Origin: Pseudofrankia inefficax
GTDB taxonomy: Bacteria; Actinomycetota; Actinomycetes; Frankiales; Frankiaceae
DNA: 64,000 nt
Direction: 5' to 3'
Assembly: GCF_000166135.1 (NCBI RefSeq)
Contig: NC_014666.1
Span: 3,286,001 to 3,350,000, forward strand
Below are positions 22,162 through 38,896 of the stretch, in pieces. A model generated the notes under the pieces. It was not told the DNA's origin. It ran no database searches and saw only the letters and a list, made by a program, of their open reading frames with translations. How positions within the stretch are numbered: position 1 is the stretch's first letter; every line of letters starts with the position of its first letter. A program made the translations under genes and the position numbers.

Positions 22162-23005
22162 CGGTTCCCCTCTCCACTCCTGGTTCCGCGGCCGTATTCG
22201 CGTGGTCGCGGAAGGTAAGTAAGTAGCCGCATCGAACGGCTGGCGCCGGGGAGCGTCAACCGGGGGCCCGGTGCTCACCCCGGCGGGGTGGCGGGGCCCG
22301 GGCGGCGGACTGGCGCGTGCGGGAATGGGCAAAGCGGGGCTCCGCGCGAGGGCCGCCGGCGTCCAGCGGTGGCCGCGCCGCCAGCTCGGTGGCGAGGTGG
22401 CTCGGCGGTTCGGTGGCGCGGCCGTTCGCGTCGGGTGGCTTGGGCGACTGGGCGACTGGGCGACTGGGTGGCTGGGTGACCGGGTGGTCGGGCGGCTGGG
22501 TGGCTGGGTGGCTTGGGCGTCCCGCCCTGTTGTCCACGGTGTTGACGGCCCGGCGCTGGCACGGATGATCATTAGTGGTTCGGTGGCCTCGCGGCGGGGG
22601 AGGACATTGCAGCGGGCCGTGCACCGGCCGTCGGGCCACTGGCCTCAAAAGGCGGGCCCTTGTTCCCAAGAATGCTTGTCAAGCATCCGGAACGGCTGAA
22701 ACCAGGAACCTGGAGACCGGTCTCCGGCCGAAGTCTTCAGAATTTTGGCCGGGTGAACATGGGCCGACATGTCGACCCGTCGGCGGGCCGGATTGCGCAG
22801 CGTTGACGGGTGTGTTGGGAAAATGGCCGCGGGGCTATTCGTTCCCTGATGTCCGGACGCTCCCTGATCCTTTTTTCGCTGAGCCACGCCGCGGGTTAGG
22901 CTGCGTCCCGCAGTCATTCCGAAGTCGTATTCCGCGCTGGTGGTCGAAGGTCTGTGGGGGAAGCCCGCACCGACCGGCGGGCATCGAGCGGATGAGGGGG
23001 ATCGA
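22162..23005. other. 844-bp intergenic region
   Basis: Contains the 8-bp tandem repeat described separately and otherwise no supported gene. From about 22700 the base composition is lower in GC than the surroundings. TTTTTT at 22870-22875 and TAGGCT near 22899 could belong to the promoter of the secreted peptide gene, but no clear -35 is seen. Confidence 0.6.
22434..22518. repeat. 8-bp tandem repeat (GGGYGRCT)n
   Basis: About ten consecutive copies of an 8-bp unit with the consensus GGGYGRCT. Because 8 is not a multiple of 3, all reading frames through it give proline/serine- or glycine/tryptophan-rich nonsense, which supports a non-coding tract prone to slippage. Confidence 0.85.
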
Positions 23006-23293
23006 ATGAAGAAGTCGATGGGCCGCCGGGTCGCCGCTGTCGCCGTCACCGGAGCTATCGCCGTCGCGGTTGGCATCGGCCCGGCGGCAGCCGCGCAGGC
23101 CTGCGACTGGGGCTGGGGCGACAAGGGCGGCAAGGACAGCGGCTGGAACTGGGGTGACAAGCGCGGCAAGGACGGTTGGAACAAGGACGGTAAGGACGGC
23201 TGGGGTAAGGACGGTTGGGGCAAGGACGGTAAGGACGGCTGGGGCAAGGATGGCTGGGGCAAGGACGGTAAGGACGGCGGCTGGAACTGGTAG
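23006..23293 (+). CDS. Secreted Lys/Asp/Gly/Trp repeat peptide
   Basis: A 95-aa protein. A signal peptide (MKKSMGRRVAAVAVTGAI, hydrophobic to about residue 34) has a likely cleavage after AQA, just before Cys-Asp. The mature part, about 60 residues, is made almost only of K, D, G, W and N in repeats such as KDGWGKDGWGKDGKDG. It is highly polar with regularly spaced Trp and alternating charges, so disordered or polymer-like. The start at ATG 23006 has a GAGGGGG site. It is followed by a strong terminator (23378-23413). I recognise no family. Cell-wall, polysaccharide or metal binding are guesses. Confidence 0.75.
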   Translation: MKKSMGRRVAAVAVTGAIAVAVGIGPAAAAQACDWGWGDKGGKDSGWNWGDKRGKDGWNKDGKDGWGKDGWGKDGKDGWGKDGWGKDGKDGGWNW

Positions 23294-24169: not shown

Positions 24170-24370
24170 GGTCGCGTCGGCTTCGTGCGGCGGGTCGGCC
24201 TCGGCTTCGTGGGTCGGCCTCGGCTTCGCTCGGCCGGCACTGGCTTCGCTCGGCCGGCCCGCACAGGCCCTGCTCGGCGGGCCCGCGTCGGCCTCGCTCG
24301 GCGGGCCGGCGCCGGCTCCACTCGTGGGTCGGCGGCGGCTCCGTGTGGCGGTTTCGTGCGGCGGACCGGG
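24170..24370. repeat. Degenerate repeat tract rich in TCGGCCTCGGCTTCG
   Basis: Irregular reiteration of GTCGGCCTCGGCTTCG- and CTCGGCGGGCC-like units over about 200 bp. No frame through it looks like a protein. It may be a decayed tandem array. Confidence 0.5.
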
Positions 24371-24573
24371 GCGGGCGCGGCGTGGCCGTGCGGCTCGCGG
24401 AAGGGTCCCACTGTCCACCCCCTCCGGGCAATAACGTACCGCATCCAGTCAGATTCCCACCGTGGTGATCTGGCATACGATCCGGGCTGGATATCGATTG
24501 CCGAAAGGAAACCAAATAAGCTGGCTTGGAGGCTTCGGGCGAGCCTGTCCGGCCCGGCCGAATCGGAGGGAGA

Positions 24574-25896
24574 ATGCGCCGCGTGGGCGCTGGAGATCTG
24601 TCTGACGACGAGTGCGGGGTACGGCTGCTGGGACCTGACGGGGTGATGCGGGAACATCCCCGTTTCGCCTCGCTGCTCAGCGCCGAGGACCTCCGGAGCT
24701 GCTATGGCGCGATGCTGCGCGCCCGTCATCTCGACGACCAGGCGACCGCCCTGCAACGGCAGGGGGAGCTCGCGCTGTGGATCCCGCTGCGGGGTCAGGA
24801 GGCGGCGCAGGTCGGCTCGGTGCGCGCCGCGCTGACCAGCGACTTCGTCTTCCCCAGCTACCGCGAGCACGCCGTGGCCTGGGACCGCGGACTGCCCGCG
24901 GTGGAGGTCCTGCGGCTGCTGCGGGGCAGCACCCACGGGGGCTGGAACCCGGCCGACCACAACCTGGCGAACTACGCGCTGGTGCTCGCCAGCCAGACGC
25001 TGCATGCCGTTGGTTATGCCCTCGGTCTTCAGCTTGATGCGCAGCGTGGCCACGCGGATGTGGCCACCGTCGTCCCGGAGGCTGCCGGAAATGCGATTGT
25101 CGGACGTCCGAGAATCTTGGGAGATGGTGCGCCGAATGCCGACGCGGAAGAACTCCTAGGACGTCCGACAATCGAGGGGGAAAGAAAGGCCTCGGGGAGT
25201 CCCGATGAATTGGTCGGACGTCCTACTAATATCCGTGAACGGGCAACCGTCGGACGTCCTACTAACGCGGAGCATGGTCCCGGCGCGGCCGTGCTCGTCT
25301 ATCTCGGGGACGGCGCGATGAGCCAGGGCGACGCCAACGAGGCGTTCGTCTGGGCCGCCAGCTTCGCCGCCCCCGTGGTCTTCTTCTGCACCAACAACCA
25401 GTGGGCGATCTCGACACCGGCGTCCAGGCAGTCGCGGGTCCCGCTGGCCGACCGGGCGAACGGCTTCGGCTTCCCCGGCGTGCGGGTCGACGGCAACGAC
25501 GTCGTCGCCGTGCACAGCGTCACCTCGTGGGCGCTGGAGCGGGCCCGCCGCGGCGACGGCCCGACCCTCATCGAGGCCTACACCTACCGGATGGGCCCGC
25601 ACACCACGTCCGACGACCCGGCCCGTTACCGCCCGGCCGAGCAGGAGGCCGTCTGGCGCGCGCGCGACCCGATCGACCGGGTCGCCCGCCTGCTCGCGTC
25701 CGACCACGACGATGCCTGGTTCGCCGCCCAGCGCGCCGAGGCCGAGCAGGCCGCGGTCCGGCTGCGGGAGGCGGTCCTCGCGCTGCCGGAGCCGCGGCCG
25801 GACGCGTTCTTCGACGACGTCCTCGTTACCGAGACCGACGAGGCCCGCGCCGAGCGGGCCCGCTTCCGGGCCTACCAGGAGTCCTTTCAGGCATGA
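24574..25896 (+). CDS. bkdA: 2-oxo acid dehydrogenase E1 component, alpha subunit, with palindromic-repeat insert
   Basis: Thiamine-diphosphate-dependent decarboxylase subunit of a branched-chain 2-oxo acid (or pyruvate) dehydrogenase complex. PSYREHAVAWDRG (residues 94-106) and the ThDP motif GDGAMSQGDANEAF...NN (245-275) are intact. Between LDAQRGHADVA and GPGAAVLVYLGDG there are about 65 additional residues (about 170-235) containing four GRP(T/R) units. They are encoded by lower-GC DNA with repeated GGACGTCC palindromes. Homologues I know join these blocks directly. The start at ATG 24574 has a GGAGGG site. It overlaps E1beta by ATGA. The insert lies just before the ThDP loop, so the effect on activity is uncertain. 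Confidence 0.9.
   Translation: MRRVGAGDLSDDECGVRLLGPDGVMREHPRFASLLSAEDLRSCYGAMLRARHLDDQATALQRQGELALWIPLRGQEAAQVGSVRAALTSDFVFPSYREHAVAWDRGLPAVEVLRLLRGSTHGGWNPADHNLANYALVLASQTLHAVGYALGLQLDAQRGHADVATVVPEAAGNAIVGRPRILGDGAPNADAEELLGRPTIEGERKASGSPDELVGRPTNIRERATVGRPTNAEHGPGAAVLVYLGDGAMSQGDANEAFVWAASFAAPVVFFCTNNQWAISTPASRQSRVPLADRANGFGFPGVRVDGNDVVAVHSVTSWALERARRGDGPTLIEAYTYRMGPHTTSDDPARYRPAEQEAVWRARDPIDRVARLLASDHDDAWFAAQRAEAEQAAVRLREAVLALPEPRPDAFFDDVLVTETDEARAERARFRAYQESFQA
25085..25275. repeat. Cluster of four GGACGTCC palindromic elements inserted in frame
   Basis: Element cores are at 25100-25111 (TCGGACGTCCGA, a perfect 12-bp palindrome), 25159-25166, 25213-25223 (GTCGGACGTCC) and 25249-25260. 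The second is in the opposite orientation to the first, and the last two share GTCGGACGTCCTACTAA. The spacer DNA uses codons such as ATA, AAT, GAA and AGA that are rare in the flanking gene, so the segment looks foreign. Confidence 0.85.
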
Positions 25897-27080
25897 GCAC
25901 GCGGACGCTGCCCTCCTCCGACCTTCCGGCCTCCGACCTTCCGGACTCGGCCCCGACGGCGCCCGCGCCGCGGCGGCCCGTGGTGCCGTCCCGGGGCGGC
26001 CCCGCCGATCCCATGACCCAGCCGCAGGACACCCAGCCGCAGGACGGCACCCAGGCCCGGGCGGGGAACCAGGCGGCGCAGGACGCCGAGCCGCGCAGCC
26101 TCCCGCTGGCCAGGGCGCTCGGCGCGGCGCTGCGGGACGCGATGGCGGCCGACGACCGGGTCGTCCTGCTCGGAGAGGACGTCGGCCGGCTCGGCGGCGT
26201 GTTCCGGATCACCGACGGCCTGCAGGACGCCTTCGGTGAGCACCGGGTGGTCGACACCCCGCTCGGCGAGGCCGGCATCGTCGGCGCCGCCGTCGGCCTG
26301 GCCATGCGCGGCTACCGGCCGGTCTGCGAGATCCAGTTCGACGGGTTCGTCTACCCGGCCTTCGACCAGATCGTCACCCAGCTCGCCCGCCTGCACCAGC
26401 GCTCCGGCGGCCACCTGCGGATGCCGGTGACCATCCGCATCCCATATGGCGGTGGGATCGGCGCCGTCGAGCACCACAGCGAGTCCCCGGAGGCGTACTT
26501 CGCGCACACCCCAGGGCTGCGGCTGTTGACGCCCTCGACCGCCGCGGACGGCTACCAGCTGTTGCGCGCGGCGGTCGCCTGCGACGACCCGGTGATCTTC
26601 TTCGAGCCCAAGCGGCGCTACTGGGAGCGAGGCCCGCTGGCCGCGGCCGAGGACCCGCCGCTGCCGCTGGACCGGGCCCGGGTCGCCCGCCCTGGCAGCG
26701 ACGTCACGGTGATCGCCTACGGGCCGACGGTGCGCACCTGCCTGGACGCCGCGACCGCCGCCGAGGCCGACGGGCGCGCCGTCGAGGTCGTCGACCTGCG
26801 CTCGCTGGCGCCCGTCGACTGGCCGACGCTGACCGCCTCGGTACGCCGCACCGGCCGCGCCGTCGTCGTCCACGAGGCGACGGTCACCGGCGGGCTCGGC
26901 GCGGAGATCGCCGCCCGGCTCACCGAGGAGTGCTTCTACCACCTGGAGGCGCCGGTCGGCCGGGTCGGCGGCTACCACACCCCGTACCCGCCGGCCCGGC
27001 TGGAGAAGGACTACCTGCCGGACCTGGACCGGATCCTTGACGCCGTCGACCGGACGTTCTCCTACGGGACGACGTCATGA
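25893..27080 (+). CDS. bkdB: 2-oxo acid dehydrogenase E1 component, beta subunit
   Basis: Partner of E1alpha in the alpha2beta2 decarboxylase. Transketolase-like core with LLGEDVGRLGGVF, DTPLGEAGIVGAAVG, CEIQFDGFVYPAFDQI and IPYGGGIGAVEHHSESPEA, then the C-terminal domain with VHEATVTGGLGAEIAA. The ATG at 25893 overlaps the E1alpha stop (ATGA) and gives 395 aa, with an N-terminal tail of about 70 low-complexity residues. A later ATG at 26013 is possible. The tail includes two copies of a 15-bp unit encoding SDLPA/SDLPD at 25916-25945. The following E2 gene overlaps by 4 bp. Confidence 0.92.
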   Translation: MSTRTLPSSDLPASDLPDSAPTAPAPRRPVVPSRGGPADPMTQPQDTQPQDGTQARAGNQAAQDAEPRSLPLARALGAALRDAMAADDRVVLLGEDVGRLGGVFRITDGLQDAFGEHRVVDTPLGEAGIVGAAVGLAMRGYRPVCEIQFDGFVYPAFDQIVTQLARLHQRSGGHLRMPVTIRIPYGGGIGAVEHHSESPEAYFAHTPGLRLLTPSTAADGYQLLRAAVACDDPVIFFEPKRRYWERGPLAAAEDPPLPLDRARVARPGSDVTVIAYGPTVRTCLDAATAAEADGRAVEVVDLRSLAPVDWPTLTASVRRTGRAVVVHEATVTGGLGAEIAARLTEECFYHLEAPVGRVGGYHTPYPPARLEKDYLPDLDRILDAVDRTFSYGTTS

Positions 27081-28504
27081 CGGGGCGGGACTTCCTGCTG
27101 CCCGACCTGGGGGAGGGCCTCGCGGAGGCCGAGATCGTCCAGTGGCTGGTACGCCCCGGCGACCCGGTGGCGCTCAACCAGCCGCTCGTGGAGGTCGAGA
27201 CCGCGAAGGCGGCCGTCGAGATCCCGTCGCCCTACGCCGGCGTGGTGGCGGCCCTGCACTGCGCGGAAGGTGAGCTCGTCCCCGTCGGGACGGCCCTGCT
27301 GACCGTCGCCGCCGAGTCGGTCGCCGACGCGGCGACCGGGGCCGAGGAGGCGCCGCCGGCCCCGGTCGTCGGCCGGGCCCCGGTCGAGCCGGCGCCCGGC
27401 GAGGTGCCGCGCCGCCGGCCCCGTCGGGCCGCCCACACGGGGCTCGTGGCCGCCGCGGCGGCAGCCCCGGTCCAGACCGCTGGCCCGGTCCTCGGGGCGG
27501 AGCGCCGCGCGCCGGTCGCCCGGGTCGCGCTCGCTCCCCAGCGCCCTGCGGCCCCGCTGGTTCCGGCGCCGAACGGTCTGCCGAGGGCCAAGGTGCTGGC
27601 CGCCCCGCCGGTGCGCAAGCTCGCCCGCGACCTCGGCGTCGACCTGGGTACGGTCCACCCGACCGGGCCGAACGGCACCATCGCCCGGGCCGACGTCACG
27701 GCGGCCGCCACACCGGTCCCGGACCCCGGGCCGCCGCGCCCGGCGCCGTCGGGCGTCCGGCCGGGCGAGCGCCTCCCGGTGCGCGGCGTCGCGCGCCAGA
27801 TGGCGCTGGCGATGGAGCACAGCGCGTTCCAGGTGCCACAGGCCACGGTCCAGCGGACCGTCGACGTCACCGGCCTGCTGGACCTGCTCGCCCGCTGGCG
27901 GGCGGACCCGCCGGCCGGCCAGGTCACAGCCGGCCAGGCACCCGGCGGCGACCGGCCGGTCAGGATCACGTCGCTGGCCTTCATCAGCCGCGCCGTGGTC
28001 GCCGCGGTCGCGCGCCACCCGCTGGCGAACGCCCGCTGGCTGACGGCCGCCGACGGCTCCAACGAGATCGAGGTGTACCCGGCGGTCAACCTGGGCGTGG
28101 CGGTGGCCAGCGAGCGCGGGCTCGTCGTCCCGGTGATCCCCGCCGCCGACCGGCTCGGGCTGACCGCCCTGGCCGGCGAGCTGGCGAGCCTGGTCGAGGC
28201 CGCGCGCGCCGGGCGCACCCCACCGGCGCGGATGCGCGGCTCGACGATCACCGTGTCCAACGTCGGCGTCTTCGGGGTGGACTCGGCCGCCGGGCTGGTC
28301 CGCGAGGGCGAGGCGGCCCTGGTCGTGCTCGGCGCGATCCGGGACGCGGCCGCCGTCTGGCAGGGAGAGGTCCAGGTCCGCCGGGTGATGACGGTCTCCG
28401 TGTCCTTCGACCACCGGATCCTGCACGGCGAGGCCGCGTCGAGGTTCCTGGGCGAGATCGCCGCCGTGCTCGCCGACCCGGTCAGCCTGCTGCTGCACGG
28501 CTGA
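27077..28504 (+). CDS. bkdC: 2-oxo acid dehydrogenase E2 (dihydrolipoyl acyltransferase)
   Basis: Core acyltransferase of the complex, 475 aa. One N-terminal lipoyl domain has lipoylated Lys44 in VETAKAAVEI. A long Ala/Pro-rich linker follows, then the peripheral subunit-binding domain (VRKLARDLGVDLGTVHPTGPN), another linker, and the catalytic domain ending in SFDHRILHGE, where the usual HxxxDG motif appears as HRILHG with the conserved His. Only one lipoyl domain is present. With E1alpha and E1beta it forms a compact operon; E3 (lipoamide dehydrogenase) must come from elsewhere. Branched-chain substrate preference is inferred from similarity to mycobacterial BkdABC. Confidence 0.9.
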   Translation: MTGRDFLLPDLGEGLAEAEIVQWLVRPGDPVALNQPLVEVETAKAAVEIPSPYAGVVAALHCAEGELVPVGTALLTVAAESVADAATGAEEAPPAPVVGRAPVEPAPGEVPRRRPRRAAHTGLVAAAAAAPVQTAGPVLGAERRAPVARVALAPQRPAAPLVPAPNGLPRAKVLAAPPVRKLARDLGVDLGTVHPTGPNGTIARADVTAAATPVPDPGPPRPAPSGVRPGERLPVRGVARQMALAMEHSAFQVPQATVQRTVDVTGLLDLLARWRADPPAGQVTAGQAPGGDRPVRITSLAFISRAVVAAVARHPLANARWLTAADGSNEIEVYPAVNLGVAVASERGLVVPVIPAADRLGLTALAGELASLVEAARAGRTPPARMRGSTITVSNVGVFGVDSAAGLVREGEAALVVLGAIRDAAAVWQGEVQVRRVMTVSVSFDHRILHGEAASRFLGEIAAVLADPVSLLLHG

Positions 28505-30679: not shown

Positions 30680-31264
30680 GTGGCCGACACCCGAAGCCGC
30701 ATGGTCGACGCGACGATCCACGCGTTGCAGCGCCGCGGGGTCGCCGGAATGTCGTTCACCGACGTGCTGCAGGACAGCGGCGCCGCCCGCGGCGCCATTT
30801 ACCATCACTTCCCCGGAGGCAAGGCGCAGCTCGTCGCCGAGGCCGCCGCGCGCAACGGCGAGTACGTGCGCGCCAGCCTCGCGACCCTGCCGGCGGGCGA
30901 CCCGCTCGTCGTGGTCGGGGCCTTCCTCGACGCCGTCCGGCCCGTGCTGGTCGCCTCGACGGCCGGGGGCGGCTGCGCGATCGCCGCGATCACGGTCACG
31001 GCCGGCGAGGAGGGCCGCGGCGACGCCGACCTCCAGCGCATCGCCGCCGCCATCTTCGCCTCGTGGGCCCAGATACTGGCCGAGCGCCTGGAACCGGCCG
31101 GCCTCCCGCCCGACGAGGCCCTCGGCCTGGCGACCACGCTGATCATGCTTCTCGAGGGCGCCCACGTCCTGTGCCGCGCCACCGGCACGCTCGAACCCTT
31201 CGAACAGGCCGCCCGCACCGCCATCGACCTCACCCGCGCCCGCTACCAGGCCACCCCGTCCTGA
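30680..31264 (+). CDS. TetR-family transcriptional regulator
   Basis: Repressor of 194 aa. N-terminal helix-turn-helix (FTDVLQDSGAARGAIYHHFP, residues 26-45) in normal position. The C-terminal ligand domain has the GGGCAIAAITV type stretch seen in LmrA/YxaF-like regulators. GTG start with CTGGAGG 8 nt upstream. Divergent from the tautomerase gene; likely autoregulates and controls it through the 30608-30629 palindrome. The ligand is unknown; a small aldehyde or haloacid-type compound would fit a tautomerase but is speculation. Confidence 0.92.
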   Translation: MADTRSRMVDATIHALQRRGVAGMSFTDVLQDSGAARGAIYHHFPGGKAQLVAEAAARNGEYVRASLATLPAGDPLVVVGAFLDAVRPVLVASTAGGGCAIAAITVTAGEEGRGDADLQRIAAAIFASWAQILAERLEPAGLPPDEALGLATTLIMLLEGAHVLCRATGTLEPFEQAARTAIDLTRARYQATPS

Positions 31265-38059: not shown

Positions 38060-38896
38060 GTGTCGCTGAGCAAAGGGGGCACCTACACCGAGGGCGGGGA
38101 AGGGGTGGACGAGGGAAGCCTGGGGAACGCGCTCGGGAACATTTACGCCGAGCGGTATTACGAGCAGCAGAGAGAAAAGAACCAACCGAAGTCGACCCCG
38201 CACGGCGCCAGCACCGACGACCTGTGCATGACCAACGGCGAGTCCACCTGCTCGACGCCGCGCGGTGCGAGCACGGACGACCTATGCATGACGACGGGCG
38301 AGCCGTCCTGCCCGAAACAGAGCAGCGCGCCTCCGCAGCCCAGGCAGAAATCCTCACCGCGGAAGTCGACCGCGCCCGCACGGCAGCCAGCCCAGCAGAC
38401 CTACCCCGACCCGAACGACGTCATCCACGGCACCCTGAACATCAACCCCGACTCGACGCACGGAGTCGGTAACAACGGCACGATCCCCAAGCCCACCGAC
38501 GTCCCCCAGACCTACTCCAGCCCCCTCGACGCCAACCTCGGCCCCACCACCGACGAGACCGCCGGCCGGCAGTTCGAAGCCTCCGAATCCGACTGCGCCA
38601 ACGCCGATCTCGAACACTGCATCGGCGACGACCCGGTCAACCCACCGACGGATGCGGGGGCGGGTGGCGAGGGTGGCAACCAGCCACCGAACAGCTCCGG
38701 TGGCGTCGCCGGCGATCCTGATGACCCAGATGTTACTGTTACCGCGTCCGATGATTCCTTTATGGTCGAGCATGCTGGGCCTCGACCCGTCATACACCGG
38801 GAGGGCCAGTATTGTCGGTGCGGATGCAATCCAGCGTGCGCTGTCACTTTGGGGGGAGCCGCTGGCCGGCGTCGAGGCGGATCGTCGAACCGTTGA
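38060..38896 (+). CDS. Unknown protein with duplicated cysteine motif (possibly truncated by the IS)
   Basis: A 278-aa open frame whose first codons lie 10 bp from the IS right end, so the original N-terminus is probably lost. It contains a near-perfect duplication of about 19 residues (GASTDDLCMTNGESTC and GASTDDLCMTTGEPSC). It is rich in Asn, Pro, Thr and Asp, without membrane segments. The middle reads NPDSTHGVGNNGTIP. The 3' end runs 53 bp into the convergent SDR gene. The lower GC suggests transfer. It may be the C-terminus of a secreted effector or surface protein; no family recognised. Confidence 0.45.
   Translation: MSLSKGGTYTEGGEGVDEGSLGNALGNIYAERYYEQQREKNQPKSTPHGASTDDLCMTNGESTCSTPRGASTDDLCMTTGEPSCPKQSSAPPQPRQKSSPRKSTAPARQPAQQTYPDPNDVIHGTLNINPDSTHGVGNNGTIPKPTDVPQTYSSPLDANLGPTTDETAGRQFEASESDCANADLEHCIGDDPVNPPTDAGAGGEGGNQPPNSSGGVAGDPDDPDVTVTASDDSFMVEHAGPRPVIHREGQYCRCGCNPACAVTLGGAAGRRRGGSSNR

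Follow-up and report, generated by a model that had tools for sequence, protein, structure and literature searches.

Four operator-like palindromes inside a Frankia E1-alpha gene: a probable intragenic array of operators for a MarR protein of the Sco5413 type

The window analyzed here, a stretch of 64,000 nucleotides, sits in a single contig of 8,815,781 bp (genome G000) and contains a three-gene operon for the E1-alpha, E1-beta, and E2 components of a 2-oxoacid dehydrogenase complex (Table 1). The closest named relative that we found is Frankia sp. AgB1.9, whose E1-alpha protein is 94% identical. The designation of E1-alpha as bkd type comes from the original prediction. The best NCBIfam model, TIGR03181, is one for pyruvate dehydrogenase E1-alpha, and the match scores 371 bits, under the cut-off of 411; the bkd designation is thus provisional, and the company of ilvE and icmF sites described below favors branched-chain keto acids. 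A 117-amino-acid, secreted-looking protein with Lys/Asp/Gly/Trp repeats (GWGKDGKDGWGKDG) is encoded at 22940 to 23293 (+), and G004 and G006 have its gene in a conserved position immediately before this operon (L212:5372 and L211:5356). Elsewhere in the window, a frame at 38060 to 38896 (+) carries repeated STPRGASTDDLCMTTGE-like units and has no Pfam match.

Table 1. Features of the E1-alpha operon and its insert, in window coordinates
Feature	Position	Strand	Basis
E1-alpha upstream region, without a family site, unlike the sister genus	24300..24573	+	matrix scan from 1.5 kb upstream
E1-alpha, 2-oxoacid dehydrogenase complex, bkd-type, host of the insert	24574..25896	+	ORF; Pfam E1_dh
In-frame insert, four operator-like sites, predicted disordered loop	25066..25275	+	alignment; AlphaFold
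Operator-like copy 1, GATTGTCGGACGTCCGAGAATC, highest-scoring match to the icmF/ilvE family	25095..25116	+	matrix 28.8; 6/7 arm pairs symmetric
Operator-like copy 2, inverted, with one good half	25152..25173	-	matrix 21.1; 2/7 arm pairs symmetric
Operator-like copy 3	25209..25230	+	matrix 20.2; 5/7 arm pairs symmetric
Operator-like copy 4, one good half	25245..25266	+	matrix 21.9; 2/7 arm pairs symmetric
E1-beta, second operon gene, start overlaps the E1-alpha end	25893..27080	+	Pfam Transket_pyr, Transketolase_C
E2 acyltransferase, third operon gene	27077..28504	+	Pfam 2-oxoacid_dh, Biotin_lipoyl, E3_binding

The insert in E1-alpha carries four GGACGTCC-centered elements, which start at 25099, 25156, 25213, and 25249. 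The start-to-start spacings are 57, 57, and 36 nt, each a multiple of 3, and all copies sit in one codon phase of the open E1-alpha frame, where they translate as IVGRPRI, LLGRPTI, LVGRPTN, and TVGRPTN. As 22-bp sites, the four copies span 25095 to 25266 (172 bp) and begin 521 to 671 nt after the E1-alpha ATG at 24574; the array occupies nucleotides 521 to 692 of the gene, within the coding region and downstream of its start, as would be expected of an intragenic operator. Copies 1 and 2 are mutually inverted, with 19-nt arms that are 95% complementary, and copies 3 and 4 share an identical GTCGGACGTCCTACTAA. With unequal spacings, dissimilar spacers, and one inverted copy, the array does not consist of the constant-length, head-to-tail units of a tandem repeat (minisatellite).

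The segment from 25055 to 25276 (74 codons) has a GC content of 0.60 and a GC3 of 0.50, compared to 0.73 and 0.91 in the remainder of the gene. The GC3 of the insert in G001, G002, and F. nepalensis is likewise 0.51, 0.55, and 0.58, compared to 0.90, 0.92, and 0.96 in the respective gene remainders. The codons AAT and ATT are present in the insert and account for none of the 24 Asn and none of the 41 Ile codons in the seven other coding segments counted, and the copy cores use codons that are rare in neighboring segments, where GGA makes up 10.5% of the Gly codons and CGT 8.8% of the Arg codons. The original prediction had described an in-frame palindromic cluster of lower GC content, with codons unlike those of the gene and a sequence shared by two copies, and our analysis bears out this description. 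Just before the insert, the stretch at 25003 to 25056 (+) has unusual T-ending codons in G000, G001, and G002, which show no synonymous differences from one another there, and normal GC-rich codons in F. nepalensis.

At the protein level, the insert is located between a helix ending in QLDAQR and the strand VLVYLGDGAMSQGD. An AlphaFold model of E1-alpha (33 rows; mean pLDDT, 78.4; pTM, 0.78; residue 1 at window position 24616) has a single segment with a pLDDT below 50. This segment comprises residues 151 to 220, which correspond to 25066 to 25275 of the window, between a helix at 127 to 150 and a strand at 226 to 230. Solved relatives of E1-alpha align on both flanks of the insert and skip the insert itself. 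The insert is predicted to be a disordered loop, in agreement with the earlier proposal of a tolerated loop just before the thiamine-diphosphate motif. It is conceivable that VGRPTN is a lineage-specific protein repeat that arose from short duplications and acts, if at all, as a peptide, its likeness to promoter sites being coincidental. The single codon phase and the spacings in multiples of 3 would fit such an origin, as would the degenerate relatives in the aligned F. nepalensis insert (GHPEN, IVGPP, and VGLPN) and the variable, low-complexity loop seen in the alignment of other genomes. However, 22-mers of the same family stand before icmF, ilvE, and the sister-genus E1-alpha in DNA with no clear coding frame, the rare codons GGA and CGT recur in the cores, and the loop is predicted to be disordered, all of which makes a peptide repeat improbable.

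The cluster had also been likened to the Rickettsia palindromic elements (RPE), palindromic DNA found in genes, in frame and tolerated, in many dispersed copies. The insert resembles RPE in being palindromic, inserted in frame into a coding sequence, and tolerated, but it is not dispersed and its relatives are single regulatory-type sites. The exact 13-mer GTCGGACGTCCKA occurs four times in the 8.8-Mb genome, always inside the insert and thus at one locus, instead of in many copies across several genes. Allowing one mismatch yields 14 forward and 20 reverse occurrences, compared to 19 and 13 for the reversed control; these counts are no higher than the control, which indicates that the motif is not dispersed. 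Among the matches listed for GTCGGACGTCCKACNAA with at most one mismatch in eight genomes of the genus, 9 of 10 are in E1-alpha, and the other is chance-like. Plasmid and phage searches for the insert returned nothing convincing, the best protein matches having E values of about 2, and a pattern of 14 fixed bases, too loose to be informative, gave 37 matches in viral contigs, which were treated as chance. A mobile element of the RPE kind, inserted in frame, would account for the palindromes and the foreign composition, but the absence of dispersed copies from this genome and the genus and the outcome of the plasmid and phage searches leave this reading barely credible.

We searched E1-alpha in 41 genomes, with matches in 40, and in 20 loci of a second collection that partly represents the same organisms; 18 of 49 loci, being on the other strand, were left out of the first protein alignment. 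The insert is present in E1-alpha of four of the eight genus genomes, namely, G000, G001, G002, and G003 (identified as F. nepalensis by contig match), and absent from that of G004 to G007. The original prediction had set against its mobile repeat a lineage-specific loop without related copies in any other gene. The insert is indeed lineage-specific within a single genus, whereas related sites also occur outside the gene and are of the promoter type rather than inserted repeats.

A relaxed palindrome search of G000 found seven places besides the insert, including TAGATGGACGTCCTACTA. An early pattern, TNGTMGGACGTCCKACNA, matched this genome 11 times with two mismatches, compared to 5 for its reversed control, and was not commoner than the control in three of five relatives (4 versus 5 in G001, 10 versus 11 in G002, and 6 versus 10 in G003). 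What set this pattern apart was solely the identical recurrence of one icmF-adjoining site. The 18-mer TAGATGGACGTCCTACTA recurs identically in G002, G003, G004, and G006, and precedes a gene of 1.1 thousand codons that encodes the fused isobutyryl-CoA mutase IcmF (NCBIfam, 1896 bits; cut-off, 1500). A second conserved site was found through a pattern joining the icmF site and copy 1, and in G004 it lies between leuB-like and ilvE-like genes. The icmF site is present in seven of the eight genus genomes, with placement before icmF confirmed in five of these seven and in three genomes of other genera, and all eight have an ilvE site within 700 nt before IlvE (assigned by TIGR01122). In G000, the ilvE site GATTGCCGGATGTCCGATATTC is identical to copy 1 of the insert at 18 of 22 positions, and the icmF site GATAGATGGACGTCCTACTATC at 16 of 22.

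With at most one mismatch, the pattern RATNGNNGGAYGTCCKANNNTC matches just three places in the 8.8-Mb genome of the window: icmF, ilvE, and E1-alpha. Its reversed control matches nowhere in the eight genus genomes. One or two further one-off places are present in each of G001, G003, G004, G005, and G006. The same type of search in 35 genomes of the family produced matches in 30, and 5 in total for the reversed control. Another motif, GGTCGATGGACGTCCTGCACTC, is identical in three genomes and was treated as coding, as it lies inside a G000 coding frame beside an IMPDH-like gene. In G004 and G006 (L173 and L175, position 1501), AATCG[CT]AGG[TG]CGTCCTATAGTC is found near the starts of divergent luciferase-like (F420-type) and CoA-transferase-like genes, which may represent a further target.

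Testing by similarity carries some circularity, as copy 1 was in view when the pattern was built and the family was found from the E1-alpha motif; conservation, gene contexts, and sites in the sister genus and outside the family are the independent lines of support. We trained a matrix on eight distinct icmF and ilvE sites, with no E1-alpha site among them. It ranks the four copies first in the window, where the next score is 10.9. In simulated third-order Markov sequence (88 plus 176 Mb), 22 plus 37 places score at least 20 (59 in 264 Mb, or about 2 per 8.8 Mb), and none scores at least 26. Scores of at least 18 were reached by 18 places in one 8.8-Mb run, compared to about 6 to 7 per 8.8 Mb in the larger runs. 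The family has the form expected of an operator, a palindrome of roughly 20 bp conserved upstream of the putative targets, and the insert copies belong to it by matrix score, two of the four with one good half.

The sister genus, g6, links this family to E1-alpha from the outside. All 13 of its genomes have an E1-alpha-type site among the matches listed, most often GATCGCAGGACGTCCTACGATC. Position was examined at 12 loci, all but that of the thirteenth genome, G041, and at all 12 the site immediately precedes the E1-alpha frame. In G012 its distance from the likely ATG is about 25 nt. A second site, about 140 nt further upstream, is found at 8 of the 12 loci. Two g2 genomes (G008 and G023) have a site scoring 19.0 about 600 nt upstream of the E1-alpha frame. 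The insert-bearing genomes have no site scoring at least 9 upstream of E1-alpha in a matrix scan starting 1.5 kb upstream. With the site upstream in g6 and inside the gene in insert-bearing Frankia, the same gene is tied to the same site family in two genera. G004 to G007 lack both the insert and a good site upstream of E1-alpha, indicating that E1-alpha does not always belong to such a regulon. A weak palindrome upstream of E1-alpha in G004 and G005 (score, 13.0) and its diverged form in G006 were not counted, and two g6 sites (L243 and L244) were rejected as ilvE sites, as they are not next to ilvE. Upstream of E1-alpha, G006 also has an inverted repeat, GTAGTTGTCGGGCGTACAACTAC, with a near copy in G004 (L014 and L015); its spacing is unlike that of the site family.

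Within the insert, operator letters are kept better than spacer letters. The counts are 87 of 88 versus 109 of 135 in G002 (p 9e-6), 81 of 88 versus 93 of 135 in G001 (p 2e-5), and 57 of 87 versus 48 of 112 in G003 (p 0.001), for which the alignment of the insert is uncertain. At codons with unchanged amino acids, the operators show no better conservation than the flanking gene does (Fisher p 0.43, 0.45, and 0.97). Because the operators exceed the spacers but their synonymous sites are not better kept, selection at the DNA level is suggested and not proven. The gene tree unites G000 to G002 in one clade (0.999) and groups F. nepalensis with the insert-less G004 to G006 at a support of 0.000. 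As the latter placement is unsupported, one gain followed by loss, two gains, and transfer are all compatible with the tree.

These comparisons also bear on a role in the mRNA, where copies 1 and 2 and copies 3 and 4 might pair into long hairpins and in this way slow ribosomes or determine the decay of the mRNA. Stems between these pairs are predicted, and the folding energy is low (z, -2.8), with 1 of 200 shuffles as good. However, palindromic copies pair anyway, and the upstream regions of ilvE, icmF, and the sister-genus E1-alpha often have a single site. The first stem is not kept, since copy 2 has GGACATCC in place of GGACGTCC in G001, and its F. nepalensis counterpart is degenerate. The one Rfam match (E 2.5) scores below the gathering threshold and lies on the other strand, outside the insert. 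Taken with these points, an mRNA-level function seems very improbable.

A candidate regulator for the proposed operators is encoded beside icmF, which is followed by a gene for a 168-amino-acid MarR protein (Pfam), located at G000:C1:1257081-1257584. The best family matches of this MarR lie 3.5 to 4.0 kb from an icmF-type site in 13 of the 13 Frankiaceae genomes with such a site listed. Of the 148 genomes of the class, 12 contain the exact pattern; these comprise 6 of the 11 family members and 6 of the 137 other genomes. In G060 (L247), the site at 1501 to 1522 separates divergent MarR (start, 1460) and icmF genes. As would be expected of an operator, the site is linked with the regulator gene in Frankiaceae and stands in front of it in G060. 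The MarR of L247 is 61% identical to the icmF-adjacent Frankia MarR, and the open frame of the site reads IVGRPTI, the same peptide as in the insert. Out-of-family sites also precede icmF in L250 and a methylmalonyl/isobutyryl-CoA-type mutase gene in L246, and the site in L249 lies downstream of serA and upstream of an isopropylmalate dehydrogenase gene; those in L245 and L248 are inside coding frames and look like chance.

The closest solved structure to the icmF-side MarR is PDB 4b8x (E 2.9e-37; residues 29 to 168), which scores far above the next chain and which we take to be Sco5413. According to the title of a cited reference, Sco5413 is a MarR regulator that is widespread in actinomycetes and has an unknown function. 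Among the matches listed, an icmF-type site is found in 4 of 13 g6 and 2 of 6 g2 genomes; all five g3 genomes have the MarR gene, yet none has an icmF- or ilvE-type site among these matches, and G007 has the ilvE site and no close MarR. BkaR was rejected as the regulator because its motif differs. The TetR gene at 30680 to 31264 was also considered, and no family site scoring at least 11 occurs outside the insert anywhere in the window. As far as sequence comparison can establish them, we thus have a site family, its positions, its conservation relative to the spacers, and its linkage to MarR.

We propose, with a probability of roughly 0.68, that the four copies are operators of a MarR regulator for ilvE, the E1-alpha operon, and icmF, tolerated in the enzyme as a loop and most likely acting as a roadblock. 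Inside the gene, they would probably form an array of operators for a MarR regulator of the Sco5413 type. The original prediction identified a real feature but misread it as a mobile element. In this model, which goes from the sites to a mechanism, we infer the binding of MarR, its ligand, the sign of regulation, and the roadblock. The MarR-family protein would control branched-chain amino acid and isobutyryl-CoA metabolism through an operator that mostly lies upstream of its genes and that, in one Frankia lineage, is present in four copies inside the E1-alpha coding sequence. The copies would sit in the single frame in which both orientations read VGRPT without a stop, at a surface loop that would accept extra residues. 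Since the palindrome reads as the same harmless peptide both ways in this one frame, operators could be added or inverted within the gene without harm, and the enzyme would carry translated operators as a disordered loop. Bound at the array, the regulator would block elongating RNA polymerase and lower transcription of the E1-alpha/E1-beta/E2 operon until an acyl-CoA-type ligand released it from the DNA.

Real operators may also act here by means other than a roadblock: they could be auxiliary sites in DNA looping, titrate the regulator as a sink, or serve an internal promoter for E1-beta and E2. Four sites in 172 bp, spaced by 57, 57, and 36 nt, would suit such roles, and the low-GC3 stretch at 25003 to 25056, without synonymous differences in G000 to G002, could hide a promoter. 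However, in this lineage the region around the E1-alpha start has no second family site that could act as a partner in a loop, and inspection of 25003 to 25056 by eye found no convincing actinobacterial -35/-10 pair. We consider these modes unlikely. The fuller claim, that a cis-regulatory array turned coding in one Frankia lineage and that the Sco5413-type MarR acts there by a four-site elongation roadblock, is put forward tentatively, at slightly less than even odds.

Operators within genes are a known kind of regulatory site, such as lacO2, the operator inside lacZ. According to an excerpt of PMC6237814, C.Kpn2I also has its site in a coding region, where it forms a roadblock to elongating polymerase. 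The Frankia array resembles both in the predicted location of a regulator's site within a coding region. In contrast to both, it consists of four copies, which lie in an in-frame insert that is specific to the lineage and lengthens a metabolic enzyme by about 60 residues; in the sister genus, this gene has the site upstream of it. Intragenic sigma-54 binding in E. coli had no measurable roadblock effect, as stated in an excerpt of PMC4591121, and binding alone would therefore not prove regulation. BkaR is described in an excerpt of PMC3920632 as a TetR repressor of the mycobacterial branched-chain keto-acid operon with the motif GTTA(N)T(N4)A(N)TAAC. By that account, it has two palindromic operators in one intergenic region; the Frankia sites are likewise palindromic and would serve a branched-chain keto-acid operon, but they differ from those of BkaR in regulator family, in promoter location, and in motif (GATNGNYGGACGTCCNNCNATC).

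Among the open-license PMC papers searched, we found no description of the insert, the operator, or the regulon, and none of a regulon or operator for Sco5413-type proteins. For this widespread orphan MarR, to which the icmF-side protein is related by its match to 4b8x, the operator and regulon proposed here from sequence would be new. If correct, they would constitute the first operator and target set (icmF, the ilvE/leuB region, and the E1-alpha operon) for Sco5413-type MarR proteins. The E1-alpha gene would likewise represent a natural case of regulatory DNA kept in an enzyme gene as an operator array at a permissive loop, where one sequence would be both switch and peptide.
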